Of a stretch of 64,000 nt of DNA, positions 496 through 57,642 are shown one piece after another. The DNA lies in NCBI GenBank assembly GCA_009869945.1, contig WIXG01000242.1, positions 56,803-120,802 on the forward strand. Reading direction: 5' to 3'. The DNA is from Mesaphorura yosii. Taxonomy: Eukaryota; Arthropoda; Collembola; Poduromorpha; Tullbergiidae. The notes under the pieces are model-generated. The model was not told the DNA's origin. It worked only from the letters and a program-made list of their open reading frames with translations, and searched no databases. The position numbers and the translations under genes are program-made. The first letter of the stretch is position 1, and each line of letters begins with the position of its first letter.

Positions 496-1851
496 TTACT
501 TCTCTCTTCTGTAAAGTGCATCAATCACATTTAAGAAAGGTTCTTGGGGAATTGACAGTGGCAGGGAGTTGATTTTTGTCAATATTTCATTTCTCTCGTT
601 GTCTTCATGTTTGTAAAATAATTCTTCAAGCGCCAAATCATCGTAAATACTCTTCACCACGTACTCAGCTGTACCGCTTGGTTGGCCATAATGTTTTTGC
701 AGCATTAGAATTTGCGATTTCGAAGCCAATTGGAGCGCCTTCACAATTAGCCAGGTCAGCTTCCCGTCCCGTATGTCTGTACCCACTTTCCCGGTGATTT
801 CCGGATCTCCGTAGCAGTCCAAGAAGTCATCTTGAATTTGGAATAATTCACCGATTCTCAGTGTAATATCTTCCATATCATTTAAGCACTCTTCGTCGTC
901 AATTCCGACCTGCAATTAGCAATTCGTAACTATTCGCGTTTAGCACTGTTTCAGACGACGTTTCCGACATAAGACTGGTGAGTTTCTTACACGAATAAAC
1001 GCATTCGCCACGGGCCAGACAAATGTATAGTGGCTGGTCTTGTATTTCACGAGCGCCTTGTACGTTGCTACGGTGAACCTGAACATGAGGCATGAAAACC
1101 ATGAAATTAACATTCAGACAGTACATCACACTTCTCGATCATTGTCCCTTACATCCTGAAATTCGGCCTTCCATCGCCAGAAACTTTCAGATCCAACGAC
1201 TCCCCGAGGGCGGTGTTCAGGCAGCTCTTATGTGTATATTCCATAAACTTCAAGAAGTAATGTTGTTCGGAGAAATATTTGAATATGATGTAGTTTGCAA
1301 AATGGCCCATTAGGAATGTGTCATTAATAGCTCCTAACCCAACATCATCGCGTTTGTACCAACATGGCATTCCGCGTCTCGTCTCTGAACGGTCCATAAT
1401 GTCGTCTGCTATCAAAGCACTAGCTTGAAACTGCCGAACAAAAGTCAAAGGAATTGAGTGCGGGTTGCGGCTAAGTAAGTAAGTTGAGTGTAATGTGTGA
1501 TGGCTTACAATTTCAATCATCCAACCGCTAACATAGTTCAGAAAATCCTCCTCCTCAGTACGCTCGTGTTTCAGGCTTCGATACATGAAGATGCTGAGGT
1601 ACGCCCTGCAAAATATTAGTGGGATAAGGAGAACTTTGACCCAGGTCGGCTGAGACGCACACACGGACTCACCTCGTTTGTTTCCCGAACGGAACATTTC
1701 TCTCCAGCACGTCCACAAGTTTATGAACTTTATCTGAAATGTCTTTAAATTTAGGCTCGCCCAAAATGTCATTCAGAAGAATTTGCCACACTCGCTTAAA
1801 TTCTGCCTCCACCTTCTTATATTCCTCCTTAACTTTCGCTACGGTACTCAT
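496..1851 (-). CDS. IDS1: farnesyl/geranylgeranyl-diphosphate-synthase-like prenyltransferase
   Basis: Trans-isoprenyl diphosphate synthase, which condenses IPP with allylic diphosphates. Five exons: 1673-1851, 1509-1605, 1153-1430, 991-1078, 496-909, giving 351 aa, the usual FPPS length. The first Asp-rich motif is ADDIMDRSETRRG with both diphosphate-binding arginines. The second is QDDFLDCYGD. The Lys and Arg of the N-terminal substrate loop are kept (VPFGKQTR). The residues five and four before the first motif are Ser-Ala, where vertebrate and insect FPPS normally have Phe-Phe. In avian FPPS, shrinking these residues lengthens the product, so geranylgeranyl or longer products are possible (inference). 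The usual GQ of region III reads GE (LGESLDL). It is the downstream member of a tandem array with IDS2 and IDS3 and lies head-to-head with the terpene synthase, with about 1.5 kb between starts. A TATA-like box and initiator lie upstream. Confidence 0.9.
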
Positions 1852-1940
1852 TTCAGAGTTTCAAGTGCTTGGTGACGAAGGACAATTGAAATCAGTAATC
1901 AGGCGACAAAGCGAATGAATCTCGCAAGTGAATTATCTCG

Positions 1941-1976
1941 ACTGATTTGAGGTGGTGAGCCGCATGACTTTATATC
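1941..1976 (-). promoter_or_regulatory. TATA-like box and initiator of IDS1
   Basis: On the minus strand GATATAAAG (rc of 1968-1976) is followed about 30 bases later by TCAGT (rc of 1941-1945), a good match to the arthropod initiator. The IDS1 start codon is about 90 bases further on. Spacing fits a focused core promoter. This was found by eye only. Confidence 0.5.
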
Positions 1977-3260
1977 AGAATCCCGATTGTGATTAGGGAA
2001 TACCTAATTTCTGTGTTTATAATGTGCATTTTAATGACTACGTGTCAGGATTCACGGAAACATCGTAAACAACGCAATAGAAAATAGAACCGTATATTCC
2101 CCAAAGCGAGTTCGCCAAACTTCCCATACTATTCAGTTGATACGGTCTACAGACGCTGTTGAAGTTTTCATCTTCGATAAGCCATCCGACCTGAAAGTTT
2201 CCACTACTAACCATAAAAATGAATGGGTAATTTGCAGAGACAGATAAAAAGCCATGAGAAAAAATTAATTGTAATGTCTTTACTCCAGCTTTTAAGCCAG
2301 TCTTCACGACGTCACCTACTTGCGCCAGTGGCGATTCTGGTTCAAGAGGGCACAAATTTTGAAATTGCACAGTGTACAATTGAAGCGTTTTGAGTCATTT
2401 TAATGATATTCAATACAATAATGTAAATTGCGAAACTGCTTGTTGATCAATGGTCGTCGGACGCACTTTTCGTGAAACATTGTTTCAACAAAAACCCGAA
2501 AGACCCGAATGCTTTTGTTTTTGTCTTCCTAGATCTTATCAGGACCAGGTGTGTGGGAAGGCTCTAATTACCTTAACTCGAACATATTATTAATTACATT
2601 ATAAGTGTGAAAATCACAGGTTGTGTTTGAAGAAATTAGTAATTCAAAGCGTGGCAAAATGACTTTGACCTTCGGATTGCTGAAACTTGAATGGAAGGTT
2701 GGCGTCGGGCAGATTATTCCAGGCCTTCGGGCTCTGGCATTCGAAAATATTTACTCGATAATATTTGTTTTTGCATGGCTCTTTGGAAAATTTAGAATCT
2801 CCAAAATACACAAAACCAAACTCCGTGGATTCTCTGCATAATTTATTGAATTTACTGAAGCCGCAGTTAAGGGCTTGAGTGTGTCTCAATAGTCATAAAT
2901 ACACGTGGAATGTTTATGACGAATTTATGCTCCTGTTTTCCGCGTTAGGCTCATAAACATTGACCATCTAACATCCTGGAGGATTTCTAAAGAAGTTAGA
3001 AATCTGGAGATTGGCGAAGGCGAGGGATTTGAGTGGTTCTTTGGATTACGAAATGTTTACACACCCCCAAGTTGTACCGTAAATTCGCAATACGGCAGTA
3101 AACACTTTGGTGATTGCGAATTCTGAAATTCTCGCACATAAACCATAAACCATCGCCAGCAACTGTGCTGGGCGCTACACATGGAGCTCGTTGGTGGATA
3201 TTAAGTGCTTGCTAAAGTCGCACACGTGTGTTTAGTAGTAAAGTAACTTTCCATGAGACT
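1977..3260. other. intergenic between IDS1 and TPS
   Basis: Divergent upstream region shared by IDS1 (left) and TPS (right). I see no conserved gene. One minus-strand ORF at 2644-2889 carries a phrase like the end of non-LTR reverse transcriptases (listed separately). Another at 2038-2379 (113 codons) has no recognisable feature. Confidence 0.4.
2644..2889 (-). repeat. possible decayed non-LTR retrotransposon fragment
   Basis: The minus-strand frame contains SPKAWNNLPDANLPFKF. This resembles the C-terminal signature of many LINE-type reverse transcriptases (W-N-x-L-P followed by a hydrophobic/Phe-Lys segment). No catalytic YxDD block or other RT motif is visible nearby, so at most a short relic remains. 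Low confidence: the match is one short phrase. Confidence 0.2.
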
Positions 3261-3263
3261 TGT

Positions 3264-3285
3264 TTATATAATACACTTTATAAAC
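3264..3285 (+). promoter_or_regulatory. TATA-like elements upstream of TPS
   Basis: TTATATAATA and TTTATAAAC lie about 125-145 bases before the chosen TPS start codon. Either could position transcription. A five-codon upstream ORF (ATG 3349 to TAA 3366) sits in the predicted leader and might lower translation. Confidence 0.4.
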
Positions 3286-3409
3286 TTGGGACATCATCCA
3301 TATTTGCCACATTTCACGTCGTTGGACTTGCAAGTATTTTGTACTCAAATGAACAAGTTTGTCTAAAATAACATTTCTGAACAAGTTGCGGACTTTGAGG
3401 CAGTTCAAT

Positions 3410-4630
3410 ATGGGTGACAGCACACCAACCGTGAACAAAATTCAGCCAACCATATTTTCGCTCCCGGAAGTGTCCAGCGATGACCTGGAAATAGAAACAA
3501 TCTCTGACTCCGACGTGAAATTCGTTCATTTCATCCTGCGAAACACTTCTGACGACGGAGCGATCCTGCGCGGAAGGATTCCGATGATGCGTCCACCCGA
3601 GAGCTATAAGCTTCCAGACCCCCAAGCCCTGCAAGTTGGAGTGCAATGGGTCGAAGACTGGATGCTGAAGAATATACTGCTTCGGAAGCACGAAACGGAA
3701 AAGCTGGCCAAGAGTCGCCAAATTGCGCAGGATTTGTTCATTCTCTTCGCGTTCTGCGTGCCCGAGCAATCCCTGGCCGATGAGCAAGTTTACAGGCTGA
3801 TAGCGGGACTTCAGCTCATCTTCGTCGTGGATGACATCATCGAGGAAACGAATCTGCTAGGAAGAAATCAATCTATGGGCATGCTGGCTGCAAATTACAT
3901 TGATCAGGTGTTGAAGGGAAATCACGAGTTCAATCCGGACGAAAACGTGTTCCCATCGCTGAGGAAGGCCGCAAGAGCAGGGCAAGAGCTGATCAAAAAG
4001 GCGCAGGAGTACTCGCCAGATTTTCATTCAAGAAGTGTCCACTTTGCGAATGCCGTGAAGGAAACGTATTTTGGCGTGTACTTGCTGCAAGTGGCTGATG
4101 CAAAACCTGTCGACGCACTGGTGGCTTCAACTTCTGGCGAGGATGGTGATGAAAGAATGTCAGAGGACATTTTTGTCTACTTGAGACGAGCAGACGCTGC
4201 CGGGCTCCCGGCCATTGAAATCGCGCTCTATGCTAAAGAAATTAACTTACCAGCAGAAATTCGCGACAATCTCTTCTTCAAGAAGTGTTTGGAGGTTGTG
4301 CAAGAGACTGTTGGCCACCAAAATGATTTACTGGGATTGGAGAAGGATATCAATAATGACGAATGGAACATTGTCTTGTTCAAGGTAAAAAAGTACGGAA
4401 TTCCAATGCAAGACGCTTTTCAAGCGGTGATTCAGCTTGTGGAGAAATTAATGAAGGAGTTTGTGTATTTAAAGTCAAGACTTCTGAGACTTTACCCGGA
4501 CAATGAAGATCTGGAAGAGTTTTTTGAGATTGTGAGCTCCATTCTGGATGCGAATGGATATTTGCTGCTGTACACCGAGAGACATGGCGACTTGCGGTCA
4601 GCGTTCACGAAACTCCAGGCTCGAGCCTGA
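3410..4630 (+). CDS. microbial-type class I terpene synthase, intronless
   Basis: A 406-aa protein in one exon. Class I terpene synthases ionise a prenyl diphosphate through a Mg2+ cluster and cyclise it. The Asp-rich motif DDIIEE is at residues about 141-146, in the context FVVDDIIEE. The diphosphate sensor appears as VYLRRADAAGLPAIE (Arg about 259-260), as in bacterial and fungal enzymes. The NSE/DTE-like motif is NDLLGLEKD at about 305-313. The NSE Ser/Thr is Gly and the final Glu is Asp, so metal binding may be atypical. The C-terminal Arg-Tyr pair reads Arg-His (YTERHGD). Residues about 230-255 look like an acidic loop insertion. The start is the first ATG in frame; the frame stays open upstream without another ATG. 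Lack of introns between intron-bearing prenyltransferases, plus the microbial motif set, suggests lateral acquisition. It ends 112 bases tail-to-tail from IDS2, with AATAAA at 4700-4705. Confidence 0.85.
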   Translation: MGDSTPTVNKIQPTIFSLPEVSSDDLEIETISDSDVKFVHFILRNTSDDGAILRGRIPMMRPPESYKLPDPQALQVGVQWVEDWMLKNILLRKHETEKLAKSRQIAQDLFILFAFCVPEQSLADEQVYRLIAGLQLIFVVDDIIEETNLLGRNQSMGMLAANYIDQVLKGNHEFNPDENVFPSLRKAARAGQELIKKAQEYSPDFHSRSVHFANAVKETYFGVYLLQVADAKPVDALVASTSGEDGDERMSEDIFVYLRRADAAGLPAIEIALYAKEINLPAEIRDNLFFKKCLEVVQETVGHQNDLLGLEKDINNDEWNIVLFKVKKYGIPMQDAFQAVIQLVEKLMKEFVYLKSRLLRLYPDNEDLEEFFEIVSSILDANGYLLLYTERHGDLRSAFTKLQARA

Positions 4631-4742
4631 ATTTCGTCGTCCATTATTCTTTAATCCTTAACTTGTCTTTCTTAAAGGCAACAAACTTAATAATATGTGA
4701 ATAAATTGGATTACTGCTAAAAACCTTTTACTATGCTAATTT

Positions 4743-6075
4743 TTATTTGTCTCTTCTGTAGATGGCATCCAGCGCATTTAAAAATGGTTCCTGCGGAATT
4801 ACATGAGGCAGAGCTTTAATGTCTGCCACTATTTCCAGTTGTGTCGCGTATTCATGCTTGTAAAACGTCTCATCGATTCCAAGTTCGTCGTAAATCCGCT
4901 TTATCTCACTTTCCGAGGTACTGGGAGGCTTTCCATAATGCTTCTGAATAGTATTTATCTGAGACTCGGACGCCAAGCTAAGTGCTTTCACAATCAGCCA
5001 TGTCAGTTTCCCGTCTCCGATGTCCGTGCCAACTTTGCCAGTGATTTCTGGATCTCCGTAGCAGTCCAAGAAATCATCCTGGATTTGGAACAGTTCACCA
5101 ATTTTCAGAGTGATTTTTTCGACCGCGCTATGACAGCCTTCATCTTCGATTCCAGCCTGGAATTTAGACAATTCAACCTCACTTTCTCACTGATTTTGTT
5201 CTTCCTTTCGCTTACCCGAATCAATGCATTTGCAACGGGCCAATGAAATGTATAGTAGCTAGTCTTATACTTCACCAATGCTTTGTAAGTGGATTCAGTG
5301 AATCTGTGGAAGTCAACACCCGGTCACGTTCACGCCAATTCAGATTATTAAAGAGCTCTCAGGAAATGATCACCCACTTGCTAAAATTGGATGTTCCCTC
5401 ATTGGCCATTTTCAAGTCTAGCGATTCCCCCAAGACGGTGTACAGATTGTTGTACTGATAAGCCTCCAAGAGTTTCAGCATGTAATCTTTGCCAGAGAAG
5501 TATTTGAGCATTATATAATATGCAAAGTGGTCCATCAGAAACGCATCATTCACAGCCTTCATGCCGATGGCGGCGTTCTTGTACCAGCATGAGATTCCTC
5601 TTCTCGTTTCCGATTTATCCATGATGTCGTCCGCGATCAATGCTCCAGCCTGCAGCTGGTTGACAAATGAAGGTATAAATCACCTTATTTATTGAAATTA
5701 TTTTACTTGTTCATATCAGGCGACGTCAACTTACAATTTCTATTATCCATCCACTGATGTAGTTCAGAAATTCATCTTCCTCAGTGCGTGACGGCTTCAG
5801 GCTCTTGTACATGTAGACGCTGAGGAATGCCCTGGAAAAATAGCAATCACTGGTAAAGTTAGTCTGGATTCTTGCCAAAGGCTTAGCTTTTACCTGGTCT
5901 GTTTTCCATGCGGAACGTTTTTCTCGAGAACTTGGACAAACCGGTCGACACTGCTTCGAACTCCTTTCAAATCGGGATCATTCGATAAATCATCGAGAAG
6001 TTTTGCCCACGTCTTTCTAAATTCTACTTTGATTTTCTCAATTCCCCGTCCATCACCTGTGGAATTCTTACTCAT
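4743..6075 (-). CDS. IDS2: farnesyl/geranylgeranyl-diphosphate-synthase-like prenyltransferase
   Basis: Five exons: 5894-6075, 5735-5831, 5378-5655, 5216-5303, 4743-5156, giving 352 aa. Exons 2-5 have exactly the same lengths as in IDS1 (97, 278, 88, 414 nt) and the same phases, so the two are tandem duplicates. Motifs: ADDIMDKSETRRG and QDDFLDCYGD, both complete. The chain-length gate before the first motif is Gly-Ala, again small, which predicts room for products longer than C15 (inference). Region III reads LGESLDL. The exon 3 donor is GTGGGT; a nearby GTGATC would create a stop. An alternative in-frame ATG lies ten codons upstream at 6105, but the chosen start matches IDS1 better. Confidence 0.88.
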
Positions 6076-6178
6076 GATTGAGATTTCAGAAGGTGCCCAA
6101 AACAATTTTCGTAAAATAGCTTTTGTGTATCAAGAAACATTCATGAATGAATAAACGACCGTGAGCTCCCTGTCTAGT

Positions 6179-6186
6179 CTTTATAG
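6179..6186 (-). promoter_or_regulatory. TATA-like box of IDS2
   Basis: The minus strand reads CTATAAAG (rc of 6179-6186), about 105 bases before the chosen IDS2 start codon. No clear initiator was seen at the expected distance. Confidence 0.4.
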
Positions 6187-6983
6187 TAGCACTGATGATG
6201 TAATGAATTTTATCAGGAATTCTGCAGGTAATTTCATTTTGATGATTTAAATGACTTTTTTTATGCTTCCTGCTTGTTTTTCACAATCATTGAGTTCGTA
6301 AAAATGTTATTAACACATAAAACGAGAGGCGCTTGCTTGCGTAAGACCATTCTTCTTCTTGTCTATCCTACACGAAGACGAAAGGCCCAGATTCTTCCAT
6401 GTCTCATTAACCTGGAGTAGAAATCACTTTCCATCGTTGATGTTGATGTTCTATCGTGAATTTCTTTTTACAATTAACGTGCTAATTGAGTGGATTTTCA
6501 CAAGACTCAACCAGGCTCGGGAAGTACAAAGAGTCGTGAAACATGGGAAGCACTTAAATTTAATGTCGCTGTCCTTTTGCTTAGCATTTAATCGATGAAT
6601 AATTTTGACAATTTGTAACGCGCATACTATAATTGCTATACTATAGTTCCTTCTGCACTTGCACACATGATTTCCCGAAATTAAAGATGAAGGCGAGTTT
6701 CATTATTCATAAAACATCGTGTAACGAAATGTAGAAATGTAGCTGCGTGCCTGAATGCAGCATAAACTTCGCACTTTCCTTTCACATGACCGACCACGAG
6801 CCCATAAAGTATCTTTCCTGTCGTTGGCGTATTCCAAAATATCACAAACGGGATTTATGGAACACTTGAACATGGATCATTTATGGGTGTGCATTGTATT
6901 TATTGCAATCGTTCATCTCAGAACAGAGATGACCAAACACGACATAGAATTTACTGTATTAACAAAACAAATCTGCGGAAATT
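6187..6983. other. intergenic between IDS2 and IDS3
   Basis: AT-rich spacer between the IDS2 promoter region and the IDS3 stop codon. ORFs here are short and unrecognisable. Nothing further seen. Confidence 0.4.
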
Positions 6984-8263
6984 TTATTTCTCTCTTCTGT
7001 AAATTGCGTCCACAACATTCAAGAACGGTTCCTGAGGAATGGTGGGTGGCAACGACTTAATATCCGTCAATATTTCCAGTCTCGCCGCGTCCTCATACTG
7101 GTAGAACAGTTCTTCGATTCCAAGATCATCATATACGCGTTTCACTTCTTCCACTCCGACAATGGTTGACTGTCCGTAATGCTTTCGAAGAGTTTCTTCT
7201 TGTGTACTCGATGCCAGTTCAAGTGCCTTCACGGCCAGCCATGTGATCTTCCCGTCTCTGATGTCACGTCCAGTAGGTTTGCCCGTTATCGCCAGTTCTC
7301 CGTAGCAGTCCAGGAAATCATATTGAATTTGGAACAACTCTCCTATTTTCAATGTAATCCTCTCCACAATGTCCAGAGTAGCCTGACCGTCAACTCCAGC
7401 CTGGATGGAAGCGAGGAGTGGAATAGTCTTAATTGTAAGGCCTTTGTCTAATCTGTGCTTACTCGAATCATCGCCGCTGCAACGGGCCCAAAAAATGTGT
7501 AATAGCTTGTCCTGTACTTGACCAAAGTCTTGTAAGTCGATTCAGTGAATCTGTAATTCAAGTTCAACTATATTGCTTCAGTTTTAAAGCAAAAAACGCA
7601 TTCATGTACTCGTACTCTTACTTGCTCAAATCCGGTGCTCCGTCTCCGCCCAGCTCCAAGTTCAACGACTCTCCAAACATTGTGTTAAGTCCATTATCTC
7701 GAAAGAGCTTCACAAGCTTCAAAAGATAATCTTTCCCAGCAAAGTACTTGAATGCGGTGATGTATGCGACGGTTTCCAACAAGAATGCGTCATTAATTGC
7801 ACTCAGCCCGACGTCCGGATGTCGGTGCCAGCAGAGCGTGCCATTGACGTCGCTCCTGGTTTCAGAATCGCTCATAATGTCAGTAAGCATCGCGACACTC
7901 GTTTGCAGCTGAAAATCAACAAAATGATACGGTTAAACGTATTCGGCATAATTTCAAACAATTTGGATTAGAATTTTGATTCGGTTAGGACCTTACCATT
8001 TCTATGATCCAACCAGTAACGTAGTTTAAGAAATTGTCCTCTTCCGTGCGGTTTGGTTTCAGGGTTCGGTATACATAAATGGAGAGAAAGGCTCTCGTCT
8101 GCTTTTCATGTGGAACATTTCTCTCCAGAACTTTTTCCAGCCAATTGATGGTGTACCGAATATCGTGGAATTTCGGGTCACTCAAAACCTCATCCAGAAT
8201 CACACTCCAAGCGTTTTTGAACTCCGCTTCCACTCGTTTGATTTCTTCTTTGCTGACGTTCAT
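6984..8263 (-). CDS. IDS3: IDS-like protein with both Asp-rich motifs altered
   Basis: Third tandem prenyltransferase paralogue, 352 aa, in four exons: 7997-8263, 7622-7908, 7463-7550, 6984-7400. The intron between exons 1 and 2 of IDS1/IDS2 is absent. All frames are open and all splice borders are GT-AG. The first Asp-rich motif reads LTDIMSDSE (DDxxD reduced to TDxxS). The following Arg-Arg-Gly is replaced by Arg-Ser-Asp-Val-Asn-Gly with three inserted residues. The second motif reads QYDFLD, so its first Asp is Tyr. Region III is GESLNL instead of GESLDL. Ordinary IPP chain elongation is therefore unlikely. Insect terpene synthases derived from FPPS-like ancestors also depart from these motifs, so a changed prenyl-diphosphate activity is possible (inference). 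The alternative is a silent or regulatory pseudo-enzyme. The start is the first ATG; the upstream frame is open but lacks one. Confidence 0.85.
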
Positions 8264-8325
8264 GTTGAGGGATTGAGAAGAGGTTTTGTTTTGATTCTGC
8301 TGTTCCACAGTTCACAGACAGCCTC

Positions 8326-8334
8326 AATTTATAG
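8326..8334 (-). promoter_or_regulatory. TATA-like box of IDS3
   Basis: The minus strand reads CTATAAATT (rc of 8326-8334), about 65 bases before the start codon. All three IDS paralogues have such a box, so IDS3 appears to retain promoter structure. Confidence 0.4.
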
Positions 8335-8523
8335 ACTGAAAATCGCAATTAGCATACAAATATTTGTTATTTATTTTATCCGCATGTTCGTCTTGGATCA
8401 TTAATTCACTAATGGCATGAACTTGGGAGTCCCAAGACTTTCCCAAGCATCAAATTAGTGTAGACATGAAGTTCTTGAGCGTGAGAGACAATAAAAATTA
8501 TTTTTCCTTATTTATCCATTTAT

Positions 8524-9831
8524 TTATGAAATCCAGCTAGATGATATCAGCAGACTAACCGCCTTGTCAATGACTTGTCTAAGAAACGAAACGTACGTGG
8601 CTCGGTTGCATTCAAACAGCACATTCAGCTCCAGTTTCATTGGCTGGAATGCCATTAAGAATTTACGAAGTTCTTTGTAAGCTTCCTGATTTCTCGTGCG
8701 ATGGTCACGCCGGTACTCATGCTCGTGTTCCCTGTCACAATCACGGCGCATTCTCCGTCGTTGGCGTCTGTAAAGGAACCGAATTTTTTTCAGCCATATC
8801 GATTGCAGCTGCTTGGACTTGGTTTCAATCTTGTCCGCATATTCAAACCACACTTTCATGAGTGCGAGTAGAAGGAATGACATCGTGGGCATCGCGATGT
8901 ACGCCATAAGGCCCAGTACAGCGTACAGACGGACCGTGCCGTAGAGTTGGATGACAATTGGGAGAAAGATGAATGCAAACACCACAGGGAAGCAATAGCG
9001 GGCGTACCACGAACCGAGGAGAGTGCGATTCAGGAGGGTTTCGACGTTCAGAAACCAGCGCAAGAGCTTGTAATTATGCGCGTACATCTTATGGGCAAGT
9101 TCCGAGTGGTGCTCGTCGTCTTCGTCATTCAAGTCTGTCGCGAAGTCCGCCATGTACTCAAGCCAGAACGATGTGCTCTCCAGAAAAGGTGTGACGATAA
9201 AAGTGAGCATGATGAACATCCCGTAACACAGCCGTAAGAATGCCATGTAAGTCAGCAGACCGCCCAATTCGAACCAGATTGAGTCCAGGCCAACGAAAAA
9301 CTTGAAGTATCGGTACGCGTACCGATTGAAAGGGTCAAAGTCGTGCCAGAAGAACATTCCAAGCGAAAGCGTGTGAGCGATAGAAAGTGGTTCGATCACA
9401 TTCGAGATCATGACGGTCAAAGACCTTCTCGTCTGGTATCCCTTCCGTTGTTGTCGTGTTAAGAATATTTTCTGGAACAGCGTGTCTACTCTGAAGATGT
9501 TGTTGATTATGCATGCGACGGTGTCCACGTCGAAGACGCACGCAAATGCGCAGGCTGAGAGAACAATTTCCAGCGTGACAAACATGAGCACGACGTAAAA
9601 GTGGGCTTGGCTAATGTGGCCCAGCCAGACGTCGTGCCCAAATGATGCAGCAAGGTATACCATCGTGGACGGGATGAGGAGACCGAGAAACTTGTTGAAG
9701 AAACGCTTATGTAAATACTTCGTAGGCCTAAGGATCTTTTCGTTTGGATACCAGTCGTAAGGAAGGAAGCAGAAAAAGGTTAGCAGGGTGAAGGCAAATG
9801 ATAGACGGCGATGTGCCTGTTTCGTCAGCAT
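8524..9831 (-). CDS. multi-pass chemoreceptor-like protein (gustatory-receptor type)
   Basis: A single-exon ORF of 435 aa starting at ATG 9831. About six to seven hydrophobic segments are visible, for example FLGLLIPSTMVYLAAS, YVVLMFVTLEIVLSACAF, MAFLRLCYGMFIMLTF, FPVVFAFIFLPIVIQLYG and a long stretch around AMPTMSFLLLALMKV. A charged Arg/Glu/His-rich loop precedes the last part. Length, the intracellular-type Lys/Arg distribution and the C-terminal LMAFQPMKLELNVLFECN block resemble arthropod gustatory/odorant receptor C-termini. I cannot see the diagnostic TYhhhhhQF motif; the end is poorly conserved. The call is therefore at family level only. Intronless structure suits lineage-expanded receptors. 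Confidence 0.5.
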   Translation of the reverse strand: MLTKQAHRRLSFAFTLLTFFCFLPYDWYPNEKILRPTKYLHKRFFNKFLGLLIPSTMVYLAASFGHDVWLGHISQAHFYVVLMFVTLEIVLSACAFACVFDVDTVACIINNIFRVDTLFQKIFLTRQQRKGYQTRRSLTVMISNVIEPLSIAHTLSLGMFFWHDFDPFNRYAYRYFKFFVGLDSIWFELGGLLTYMAFLRLCYGMFIMLTFIVTPFLESTSFWLEYMADFATDLNDEDDEHHSELAHKMYAHNYKLLRWFLNVETLLNRTLLGSWYARYCFPVVFAFIFLPIVIQLYGTVRLYAVLGLMAYIAMPTMSFLLLALMKVWFEYADKIETKSKQLQSIWLKKIRFLYRRQRRRMRRDCDREHEHEYRRDHRTRNQEAYKELRKFLMAFQPMKLELNVLFECNRATYVSFLRQVIDKAVSLLISSSWIS

Positions 9832-23600: not shown

Positions 23601-24960
23601 AGTGTGGTGTGGAAGATGATAACAATGACAAATTCTAATTGTACGTCCGCGATTGATGTAAACAAGCCGAGCCACAGGTACTTTCTGAGTATGAACGTGA
23701 GCTTTTCTTAATGCCGTGCTGTTGTTGGCTTCAAAAACAACAATGACGGGATGACAGGATGAAATGGGCACTGACAATGACAACATATGCGTGGAATTCG
23801 GAGTATTTAGATTGGAATCCTAGCAAGACTGAACTTATAAGGCAGGGATTTCGTTTCTGCGCTAAGAAAAGACGCAGTTCATTGCGAGTCATGACTCATG
23901 GCTCGCGAATTCGCATCTTTGTTATCTTTCATGCCGAATTCTCAACACTCAAAGGTCACTCTGATGTGATGCGTCGAAAATCTAAATTCTGTTGAAGTCT
24001 TCGATCTCTTGCTTGCAGCGAGACTTACGAAATGCCACTGGGAAGATCCCAAATCATCCAACTAAACGAGAAAAATCAAGAAAAAGAGGTCCTTTGGCAA
24101 GCTTGAATGGTATTCCATGTTTATGCCCGAGCTTGTAATAAGGCGATAATTTAATACCAAAGTTTAAACTCTTCACGCTTTAACAAGTTAGCCTTGTTAA
24201 CACGTTTAGCAACTATTACATTCTTACCAGTGCCGTTCTCGCCTTTCTGTCAATTGTCCGCCAAGTGGGCAAACATCTTGCACGAAGAAAGAAGTTTCTC
24301 TGCATGCCTTGCTAGACTTCTTTATATTAGCAAATTAATACAATCATCATGCGGTACCTGCAGTGAGATATAATATTGCCTCGCATATTTAAGCACTGTA
24401 CTGGGCCCATTAATGTTTGCATATAAAATTTGTTCATTTAATTTCTGCGTGCGTGCGATGTTTCGTAGACGGTACACAGTTTCCTTTTCTTGTGATAATG
24501 CTAGCACGTCTTCGTCTTACATTTTGCGTATATGCGATTACGATTTGGGATTTGCGAATTCTGACAATCGAAAGCTTATGCCATAACGCATAACCCGACA
24601 ATTGTTATAGTCTGTAGCATAGCACAGCAAAGTGAATTGTTGTAACTTTCTCATTTTACTTTTCCGATGCCTCAACCTCACGTAAGTTTGCCTACTGAGT
24701 TTACTTTGCTAATGTTAAAGATAAAGAACAATGGCTATTGCTATTAAATCTCAATTGTATTTTGCTATGCTGTGCTGTAATTTTTATTACGACTGACGCA
24801 TCAGGATTTCCAACGTGAATGTGAACAAACACGCGAATCCATTTTGTTTCGCACAGGTGCCATTCTTGTAGGATGCGGTGGAGCGTGCAGTGAGTTAGAT
24901 TTCGAAGCAAGCTGTGAGTAATTGCAATTGATCCGGGCATTAATTACTAAATTCGGCAAT
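14623..24960. other. gene-free interval of about 10.3 kb
   Basis: No conserved coding exon recognised on either strand. ORFs are short, lack family motifs and overlap one another in opposite frames. Base composition is AT-rich, with scattered short recurring words such as TGCAATGCAAT and CACGGCACGG. It may hold 5' UTR exons and regulatory elements of the RhoGAP gene on its left or the SDR gene on its right. I cannot identify specific elements by eye, apart from the palindrome at 23341-23359. Confidence 0.4.
23341..23359. repeat. perfect 9-bp inverted repeat with single-base centre
   Basis: CATGCCATG, a central T, then CATGGCATG. It lies in a stretch with several more CATG and TGCC words. It may be chance or a dimeric protein-binding site. 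Confidence 0.5.
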
Positions 24961-26278
24961 ATGCCGACGACTGAATCTGAATCCTACCTGGAAATGGTCT
25001 GGAACTCCATTGTTTACCTGAAAGTATTCATCCTCATGTGGTACTATGCGCTTGAGTACGCCGTGCTCAGATACATTGTGCGAAGACGGAAAGATTTGTC
25101 CAAGGACATTATTCTGGTAAGTTCCCGTTCACAATCATTAAGAGAAAGTATCTGCGCCTGCTTGAATGGAGTGCACTTTAGCCTGGTACTGATCTTGCCA
25201 TGTCCGCAGGTCACCGGTTCCGGTAGAGGAATCGGACGGGAATTATGCCTGGAGCTCAGCAAAAGTGGTGCCAAACTTGTGTGCTGGAGTCGGACAGCCG
25301 CTCCAAATGAAGATTTGGTGCAGAGGATACGAAGACAAGGTGGAACGGCCTACGCGTACACCGTGGACGTTGGAGACAGGCTCCAGGTCGAAAGGGCTGC
25401 GGCACAGGTACGAAAAGAGTCCTTGCACAAGGTCAGTTCGTGATAGAATCCTTGTTAAACTGTAACGTTTCAGGTAAAACGAGAAGTTGGTGACGTGACG
25501 ATGATCATAAACAACGCTGGCCTCATGAAGGTCAGACACATTCTGGACACCAAGCCGAAGGAGGTGGAGGAAATGTTCCAAGTCAACGTGCTCTCGAACT
25601 TTTGGATGATTCAGCAATTCCTGCCCACAATGGTTGAGAAACGTGCCGGACACATCGTCACAATAAACTCTGCCTCCGGGATTTTGCCAGCGTATTCCAT
25701 TGCAGCGTATTGTTCCACGAAACATGCACAACACGGTTTCGTTGAGGCGTTGCGTCAGGAACTCGGTCACCACCCTCTCAAACCAGACATCAAATTCACG
25801 ACCGCATTTCCATTTTACTGCTCGACTGACATGCTTGAACATGGAATTCCAAACACAAGGTGAGACCGCCCGAAAAATTATGCAACTCGTGCTCTGCTGC
25901 GACTCGGCTGGAACTGGATGATAAATTTTGGGTGCCTATTTTCATGTTTAAGGATTCCGTCACTGCTTCCGATTCTTACGCCGACGGAAGTCGCTGAAGT
26001 GATCGTGGATGGAATCCGGCGTGAATTTGAGTACGTGTATGTACCACGCATGATTTATTGGCTGGCAATGTTTTCGTGGTAAATGACTGGACAACTTCCG
26101 TGTCCATCTATACTTAATACGATAATGGCCTTGCTAATGATGATCGGCACTGTATTGCAATTGCAGGATCGTCACTCCAAAGGCAGTCAACGCGCACGGC
26201 GACTTCTTTCAGTTGTACATCGAGCCCATAACAAAGACGAGCAATAACAATCGGGACCAAGCCCAAAAGTTGAAGTGA
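24961..26278 (+). CDS. short-chain dehydrogenase/reductase, SDR16C (RDH10/DHRS3-like)
   Basis: Five exons: 24961-25116, 25210-25407, 25474-25859, 25953-26078, 26167-26278, all in phase, giving 325 aa. An N-terminal hydrophobic segment (residues about 15-40, YLKVFILMWYYALEYAVL) suggests an ER or lipid-droplet membrane anchor. The nucleotide-binding motif is TGSGRGIG. Next come IINNAG, the catalytic Ser in INSASG and the Tyr-Lys pair in YCSTKHAQHGF. The cofactor loop after beta-2 reads CWSRTAAPNED. The family oxidises or reduces retinoids and other lipid alcohols or ketones with NAD(P). The exact substrate cannot be read from sequence; long-chain or isoprenoid alcohols are also possible. The start is the first ATG in the open frame. 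Confidence 0.85.

Positions 26279-56632: not shown

Positions 56633-57642
<1,010 letters not shown>

Follow-up and report, generated by a model that had tools for sequence, protein, structure and literature searches.

Organisation of the locus

The window analysed here, a stretch of 64,000 nucleotides, runs from base 56803 to base 120802 of the 120.8-kb contig C242 in a genome assembly of 93.0 Mb and 1127 contigs. It carries three intact genes for trans-prenyl diphosphate synthases (IDS), all on the minus strand, and between the first two of them, on the plus strand, a gene for a class I terpene synthase (TPS) of microbial type. IDS1 (496..1851) encodes 351 residues in five exons and IDS2 (4743..6075) 352 residues, also in five; both are of the farnesyl diphosphate synthase (FPPS) type, as judged by the Pfam family PF00348, gene models and alignment. 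IDS3 (6984..8263), assigned on the same evidence, is FPPS-like, with 352 residues in four exons. The three genes have 4, 4 and 3 introns, GT-AG in all 11 modelled, and no internal stops. The TPS (3410..4630), recognised by PF19086, profiles, a tree and a fold match, is a frame of 406 codons running from ATG at 3410 to TGA at 4630 with neither a stop nor an intron in the coding sequence. It meets IDS2 tail to tail, the two stop codons lying 112 bp apart. Gene models and Pfam thus confirm the initial annotation of the locus, which had placed three IDS genes on one strand with an intronless class I TPS between the first two; the exon structure it attributed to all three is shared by IDS1 and IDS2 but not by IDS3, which lacks their first intron.

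The terpene synthase

The TPS protein matches PF19086 (Terpene_syn_C_2) with an E-value of 3.7e-12 and 46.9 bits, the cut-off being 23.7. Among proteins of solved structure, the one nearest to it in sequence is the fungal enzyme presilphiperfolan-8-beta-ol synthase (E 3.3e-7). NCBIfam, a bacterial and archaeal library, returned four weak matches only, all to terpene cyclase models and all far under their cut-offs.

Alignment locates the expected active-site elements in order along the protein. The first Asp-rich motif, DDxx(x)D/E, is present as DDIIEE (D141-E146; 3830..3847). The NSE-type motif (for Asn-Ser-Glu) reads N305-DLLGLEK-D313 (4322..4348): compared with the canonical NDxxSxxxE it keeps the N and the D, and is altered by S309G and E313D. 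R259 (4184..4186), which we take to be the diphosphate-sensor Arg, sits exactly 46 residues before N305, and an Arg occupies the same offset in all 32 bacterial sequences of the tree described below. The RY pair is represented by R391-H392 (4580..4585), 86 residues downstream of N305, with the Arg kept and the Tyr replaced by His; RY is visible in the printed stretch of 21 of the 32 bacterial rows. This spacing, with the sensor Arg at -46 and the RY pair after NSE, is presumably the rule for microbial TPS. The window TPS shares D141, D142, R259, R260, N305, D306, K312 and R391 without exception with 13 bacterial TPS chosen from 80 loci, whose overall identity to it is 19-22%.

Profile comparisons point the same way. 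A profile built from six of the 15 TPS of this genome matches 20 of 296 Actinomycetota genomes at E <= 0.001 (best 3.8e-14; 276 without a match), and detects none of eight IDS from its own genome (the best of this eight-sequence set reaching E 0.092). Aligned by hhalign, nine TPS of the genome and the 13 bacterial TPS score 98.7% over 295 columns (E 2.8e-16); the same comparison with the genome's IDS set yields 0.4% (E 0.15). In a tree, 13 arthropod TPS rows form one side of a branch that separates them from 32 bacterial rows with support of 98/98, on an alignment that drew warnings of several long branches and uneven letter make-up. The bacterial rows comprise the NZ_CP107797 locus, seven of 80 kept loci, and five of six and 19 further loci, with three identical pairs; the TPS-like proteins C1022, C581, C277, C556f and C959 were excluded beforehand. 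A fold model of the TPS of moderate quality (pLDDT 62.6, pTM 0.66, from an input alignment that held bacterial TPS and may lean the model towards them) gave 190 PDB matches at E <= 0.001, the best 50 of which are terpene synthases (best E 2.9e-7) from bacteria or fungi. The model also places three beta strands, at low confidence, ahead of the helical fold (residues 25-59; 3482-3586).

Insect TPS can have another origin, since IDS duplication is described as the commonest route to de novo terpenoids in insects in the part of the account that we draw on (PMC13143122), and a 2018 report, again in the excerpt concerned, places the TPS of Folsomia candida nearer to flea-beetle TPS than to those from outside the animals (PMC6275457). 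IDS3 may itself be on such a path. That the window TPS is an IDS-derived enzyme of this insect type, merely microbial in appearance, is nevertheless barely credible: the TPS profile matches none of the eight IDS of its own genome, hhalign sets the two families far apart, and R259 stands at the exact microbial spacing. Placement inside the animal IDS family, for which the genome's own IDS served as the comparison set, is contradicted by both the profile search and hhalign, and the tree keeps bacterial and arthropod TPS rows apart. The available sequences therefore support a microbial-type TPS not derived from an animal IDS, as had been proposed. The accompanying view that such genes are rare in animals must be tempered, for at least 15 TPS-like genes occur in this genome and canonical TPS have been published for other arthropods.

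As possible donors of the TPS the comparison covered Actinomycetota, the one phylum behind the bacterial rows of the tree. A tblastn search of plasmids found two Streptomyces records, at E 0.009 and 0.02; contig scans with these two Streptomyces proteins yielded no relatives for one and 124 for the other, of which 80 were kept.

The genomic setting

An intronless coding sequence of microbial type invites the suspicion of bacterial contamination or misassembly. Intron-bearing animal-type genes, however, stand within 2 kb of the TPS on both sides, on a contig of 120.8 kb; its GC content at third codon positions, 0.56, falls inside the 0.38-0.63 range of seven other genes of the window; and the gene model used for its paralogue C116a includes an intron. 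Because the neighbours of the TPS on C242 are animal genes, we regard contamination as highly improbable, and the claim that the TPS is embedded in animal DNA is upheld. Among 24 longer open reading frames (ORFs) listed on C242, ten further ones were tested and eight matched Pfam, two giving no match; the neighbours so identified include DUF938, an alpha/beta hydrolase, triosephosphate isomerase, SBDS, WD40, a scramblase and a short-chain dehydrogenase, and a Ras-family gene lies just upstream of the window. Directly beyond IDS3, at what we take as the cluster boundary, a 435-aa ORF on the minus strand (8524..9831) has no Pfam match; from a reading of its sequence it is perhaps a gustatory-receptor-type protein, a guess.

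An arthropod host, as first suggested, is supported by genes of the hemocyanin/prophenoloxidase family. Hemocyanin_M has 26 matches in the genome, the best of them closest in the PDB to AGAP004976-PA (presumably a mosquito gene name), with prophenoloxidases among the top matches; chelicerates are not known to have prophenoloxidase. The insect odorant receptor family 7tm_6 gave two matches in an exon-by-exon search, both under the cut-off; winged insects have Orco. This gene content would point to a springtail-like pancrustacean and away from mites and flies. A separate observation concerns DIOX_N (PF14226), which has 12 matches in the genome, including C759:14869-15240 and one in a 362-aa stop-free frame: these could be isopenicillin-synthase-like genes such as have been reported from springtails.

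The prenyl diphosphate synthases

PF00348 scored over its cut-off in four of the five IDS stretches submitted to Pfam, including two of the three tested from IDS1, whose 60-aa first exon gave no match. Used as complete queries, both IDS1 and IDS3 find FPP synthases of solved structure. For IDS1 the top match is 8a6u, an isoprenyl diphosphate synthase (E 2.8e-78) that we take to be a beetle geranyl/farnesyl diphosphate synthase. IDS1 keeps, in alignment, the first (FARM, DDIMD) and second (SARM, DDFLD) Asp-rich motifs together with GKQTR and RRG, and IDS2 likewise retains its catalytic motifs, both Asp-rich motifs and the diphosphate-binding residues. Both proteins thus carry the FPPS-type set of PF00348, DDxxD at FARM and SARM, and GKxxR and RRG of the site for isopentenyl diphosphate (IPP). 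IDS3 does not: its FARM has changed from DDIMD to TDIMS, its SARM reads YDFLD with the first Asp lost, GKQTR has become EKQTR, and RRG is gone. It is probably inactive alone, or diverted to another use. Loss of the first motif is not unique to IDS3, for the structure nearest to it, the FPPS 8wd5, also has a degenerate first motif (LNDIME).

Six IDS of the genome, namely the three in the window and those on C116, C99 and C144, form a divergent clade (100/100); the IDS of C284 and C71 stand outside it and resemble housekeeping FPPS. Within the clade the window triplet is itself monophyletic (100/99) and so arose by local duplication. Its nearest relative is the C99 gene (88/92), not that of C116, and the C242 and C116 clusters are therefore no simple recent block copy. 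A weak IDS-like match also lies at C150:131100-131438, just under the PF00348 cut-off (E 7.7e-6).

The clade is also marked by the residues at -5/-4 before FARM, which are non-aromatic in all six of its members (S/A in IDS1, G/A in IDS2); the C284 and C71 enzymes keep FF. In avian FPPS, according to the portions cited here, the substitutions F112A/F113S yield products of C20 and longer (PMC10563020, PMC7887238). IDS1 and IDS2 might by the same token make chains longer than C15, although this is only a possibility, weakened because 8a6u, a solved IDS, has similar residues, with S and L at -5/-4 in QASLLIMDD.

Related clusters elsewhere in the genome

TPS matches, some of them weak, were found on 13 contigs, and the genome holds at least 15 TPS-like paralogues. 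In a tree of 15 rows, from which C1022, C581 and C277 were kept out, C116a and C556f come out together with the window TPS (91/90), at 20-25% identity, so these duplications are old. Spliced-aligner models of C970, C964, C959 and C1048 were poor and were not used. Each of the three grouped genes (C242, C116a, C556f) has a gene for a prenyl diphosphate synthase no more than about 5 kb away. The physical coupling of TPS and prenyl diphosphate synthases proposed for the window is therefore seen there and recurs on C116 and C556.

On C116 the order is TPS-IDS-TPS, all on one strand: C116a at about 67.3-68.6 kb, with two exons in the model and the motifs DDLAE and NDMIGIRRD; the IDS at 71.6-73.0 kb; and a second TPS, with degenerate motifs, at 74.0-75.1 kb. 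C556 carries an array of six TPS frames, one of which is truncated where the contig stops, and in their midst a divergent DHDDS-like cis-prenyltransferase gene (C556:4881-6135) that reads LDGNRTY and RTSGC; the DHDDS copy on C73 looks canonical, with MDGNRRY and RTSGE. The C556 gene might make Z-configured precursors.

Other TPS-like loci show features of their own. At C1048:3913-6200 two ORFs that resemble cytochrome P450 by eye adjoin a TPS (7654-8826) with canonical DDILD and NDLLSFKKE, a possible TPS-P450 cluster. Three related proteins (C277:45074-47053, C581:2231-4243 and C1022:2750-4480; 551-628 aa from the first Met) are weakly IDS-like in their N-terminal half (in C277, PF00348 at E 1.2e-4, short of the cut-off) and TPS-like in their C-terminal half (PF19086 E 5.2e-11 in C1022; over the cut-off in C581; no match in C277). 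With hhalign values of 17% and 33-35%, suggestive only, these are possibly IDS-TPS fusions, in what we believe to be the opposite order to that of fungal chimeric synthases. A TPS-like stretch with in-frame stops at C970:10001-13216 is probably a decaying copy or intron-bearing.

Chance neighbours or partners

We consider it probable, though some way from secure, that a springtail-like arthropod carries, at this locus of its nuclear genome, a terpenoid biosynthetic cluster in which precursor supply is coupled to cyclisation. In a test of random placement on 13 TPS contig loci, where proximity meant lying within about 8 kb of a TPS locus, two of six FPPS-family loci were near a TPS and 0.014 were expected (P about 5e-5); with two cis loci added, the three of eight observed were reached in none of 200,000 random draws. 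A third run, which took 13 prenyl-synthase loci as a round number, is not relied on. Non-homologous pathway genes thus adjoin on three contigs, C242, C116 and C556, above the random-placement expectation.

Several observations weigh against this reading. The placement test was chosen post hoc and treats loci as independent, and the C242 and C116 clusters count as a single event if both descend from one linked pair. Linkage is not universal, as the C99 and C144 contigs, which carry IDS of the divergent clade, are without a TPS match. Tailoring enzymes were not recognised among the direct neighbours of the window TPS, with 10 of the 24 longer ORFs tested by Pfam so that others may have been missed; the nearest candidate, some 17 kb past IDS3, is the exon of a short-chain dehydrogenase (24922-25440). 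Within the family, the N-D start of NSE is kept in four of the 15 TPS-like proteins (C242, C116a, C175 and C1048) and is missing from the other 11; with the Asp of the motif lost in these, the family may be moving towards a different function. The window TPS itself departs from the motifs at three positions (S309G, E313D, Y392H).

The TPS could also owe its place next to the tandem FPPS genes to chance, having inserted or moved there, with each gene acting alone and no partnership between them. Four IDS contigs (C99, C144, C284 and C71) lack a TPS match, and nine of the 13 TPS contigs (a set of 13 that does not include C277) lack an IDS or cis-prenyltransferase match when the TPS-like proteins themselves are set aside; in the window, moreover, TPS and IDS lie on opposite strands and so do not form one transcription unit. 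Against this stands the repetition of the pattern on three contigs, with a P of about 5e-5 or less under random placement, and we judge chance proximity rather unlikely.

The TPS might also be an inactive relic, or have a role other than cyclisation, such as prenyl diphosphate binding or hydrolysis. The altered NSE, the change of RY to RH and the loss of the NSE Asp in 11 of 15 relatives would suit such a fate; yet in a fast-diverging family the 406-aa frame is intact and D141/D142, R259, N305, D306, K312 and R391 are held. From this intact frame and these kept catalytic residues we infer purifying selection on the TPS, and a relic or a non-cyclase appears unlikely.

A possible route to springtail terpenes

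If the locus is indeed a terpenoid cluster, its genes, motifs, family assignments and recurrence would accommodate the following scheme. The FPPS-derived IDS1 and IDS2 would condense IPP with an allylic diphosphate; the TPS would bind the diphosphate product through D141/D142, N305/D306, R259 and K312/R391 with Mg2+, ionise it, and then cyclise or deprotonate it to a linear or cyclic terpene. IDS3 would be an inactive partner that tunes IDS1 and IDS2, or else a decaying copy, and the same coupling of TPS and prenyl synthase would operate in the C116 and C556 clusters. Catalysis, substrate and the joint working of the genes are thus predicted, as is an involvement in springtail terpenes of the cuticular or signalling kind; the defensive, pheromonal or cuticular role first suggested for the product is likewise conjectural.

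Springtails are known for their cuticular terpenes. In one survey, as far as the passages used here extend, the cuticle of 16 of 23 springtail species tested bore higher terpenes, [7]-[9]-terpenes among them, which are traced to the ubiquinone pathway without a gene being named for them; squalene synthase and a putative squalene-hopene cyclase are discussed for other terpene classes (PMC11321324). The term 'terpene synthase' has no occurrence in that paper. The sole symphypleonan it tested had no terpenes apart from cholesterol, which speaks against a general rule (PMC11321324, from the same portion). Two other springtail species are reported to contain, respectively, a prenylated diterpene of irregular type and a nor-diterpenoid, and the excerpts of these nitidane and curvisetone accounts name no enzyme (PMC11129290, PMC11959583).

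It is conceivable, if doubtful at present, that springtail-like hexapods have terpene biosynthetic clusters of their own, in which duplicated and altered FPPS and DHDDS genes were repeatedly paired with TPS gained by horizontal transfer; that these, and not a borrowed ubiquinone pathway (PMC11321324), supply and cyclise the cuticular prenyl chains; and that the divergent IDS, with FF replaced by non-aromatic residues, make chains longer than C15. Whatever the product, clusters of TPS and prenyl diphosphate synthases provide concrete candidate genes for the unusual terpenes of springtails, testable by expression in a laboratory host. Among the best-ranked matches in the openly licensed literature, no title dealt with an arthropod TPS-IDS cluster. 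Canonical TPS of arthropods and terpene clusters of animals have already been published; the recurrent clustering of TPS with prenyl synthases is new here, with priority uncertain.

Comparison with known systems

Octocoral terpene clusters were reportedly described by Scesa in 2022 and Grayson in 2025. Like the present locus, these diterpene clusters set animal terpene cyclase genes beside pathway genes, but their partners are, in the account excerpted, oxidative enzymes (PMC12685057) and here they are prenyl diphosphate synthases.

Among arthropods, canonical TPS have been published for trombidid mites (PMC6275457) and for other groups, a fungus gnat among them (Chen et al. 2024, PNAS e2413007121, as cited in PMC12051294); these are likewise families of microbial-type TPS in nuclear genomes, to judge from the parts of both sources used here. 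Like the window TPS, the mite enzymes are only distantly similar to their microbial relatives, at 30% identity or less, and they differ in setting: one lies 5.2 kb from an elongation factor gene, IDS linkage being undescribed in the sections at hand (PMC6275457), whereas the present gene is linked to IDS. Folsomia candida, likewise a springtail, has two predicted clusters related to terpene metabolism in the portion cited (PMC5490193); its TPS is called more like the IDS-derived flea-beetle type (PMC6275457, in part), unlike the microbial-type TPS of the window. Flea beetles and termites resemble the present case in an expansion of FPPS- or GGPPS-type (geranylgeranyl diphosphate synthase) genes that feeds terpenoid metabolism; in them, according to the text drawn on, IDS copies became the TPS (PMC13143122), and here a separate microbial-type TPS is present.

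The same adjacency of TPS and prenyl synthase occurs on the Streptomyces plasmid NZ_CP107797, where a terpene cyclase lies next to a polyprenyl synthetase and a P450. There the genes share one strand in operon-like fashion, whereas in the window they lie on opposite strands and the IDS are intron-bearing paralogues of animal FPPS.

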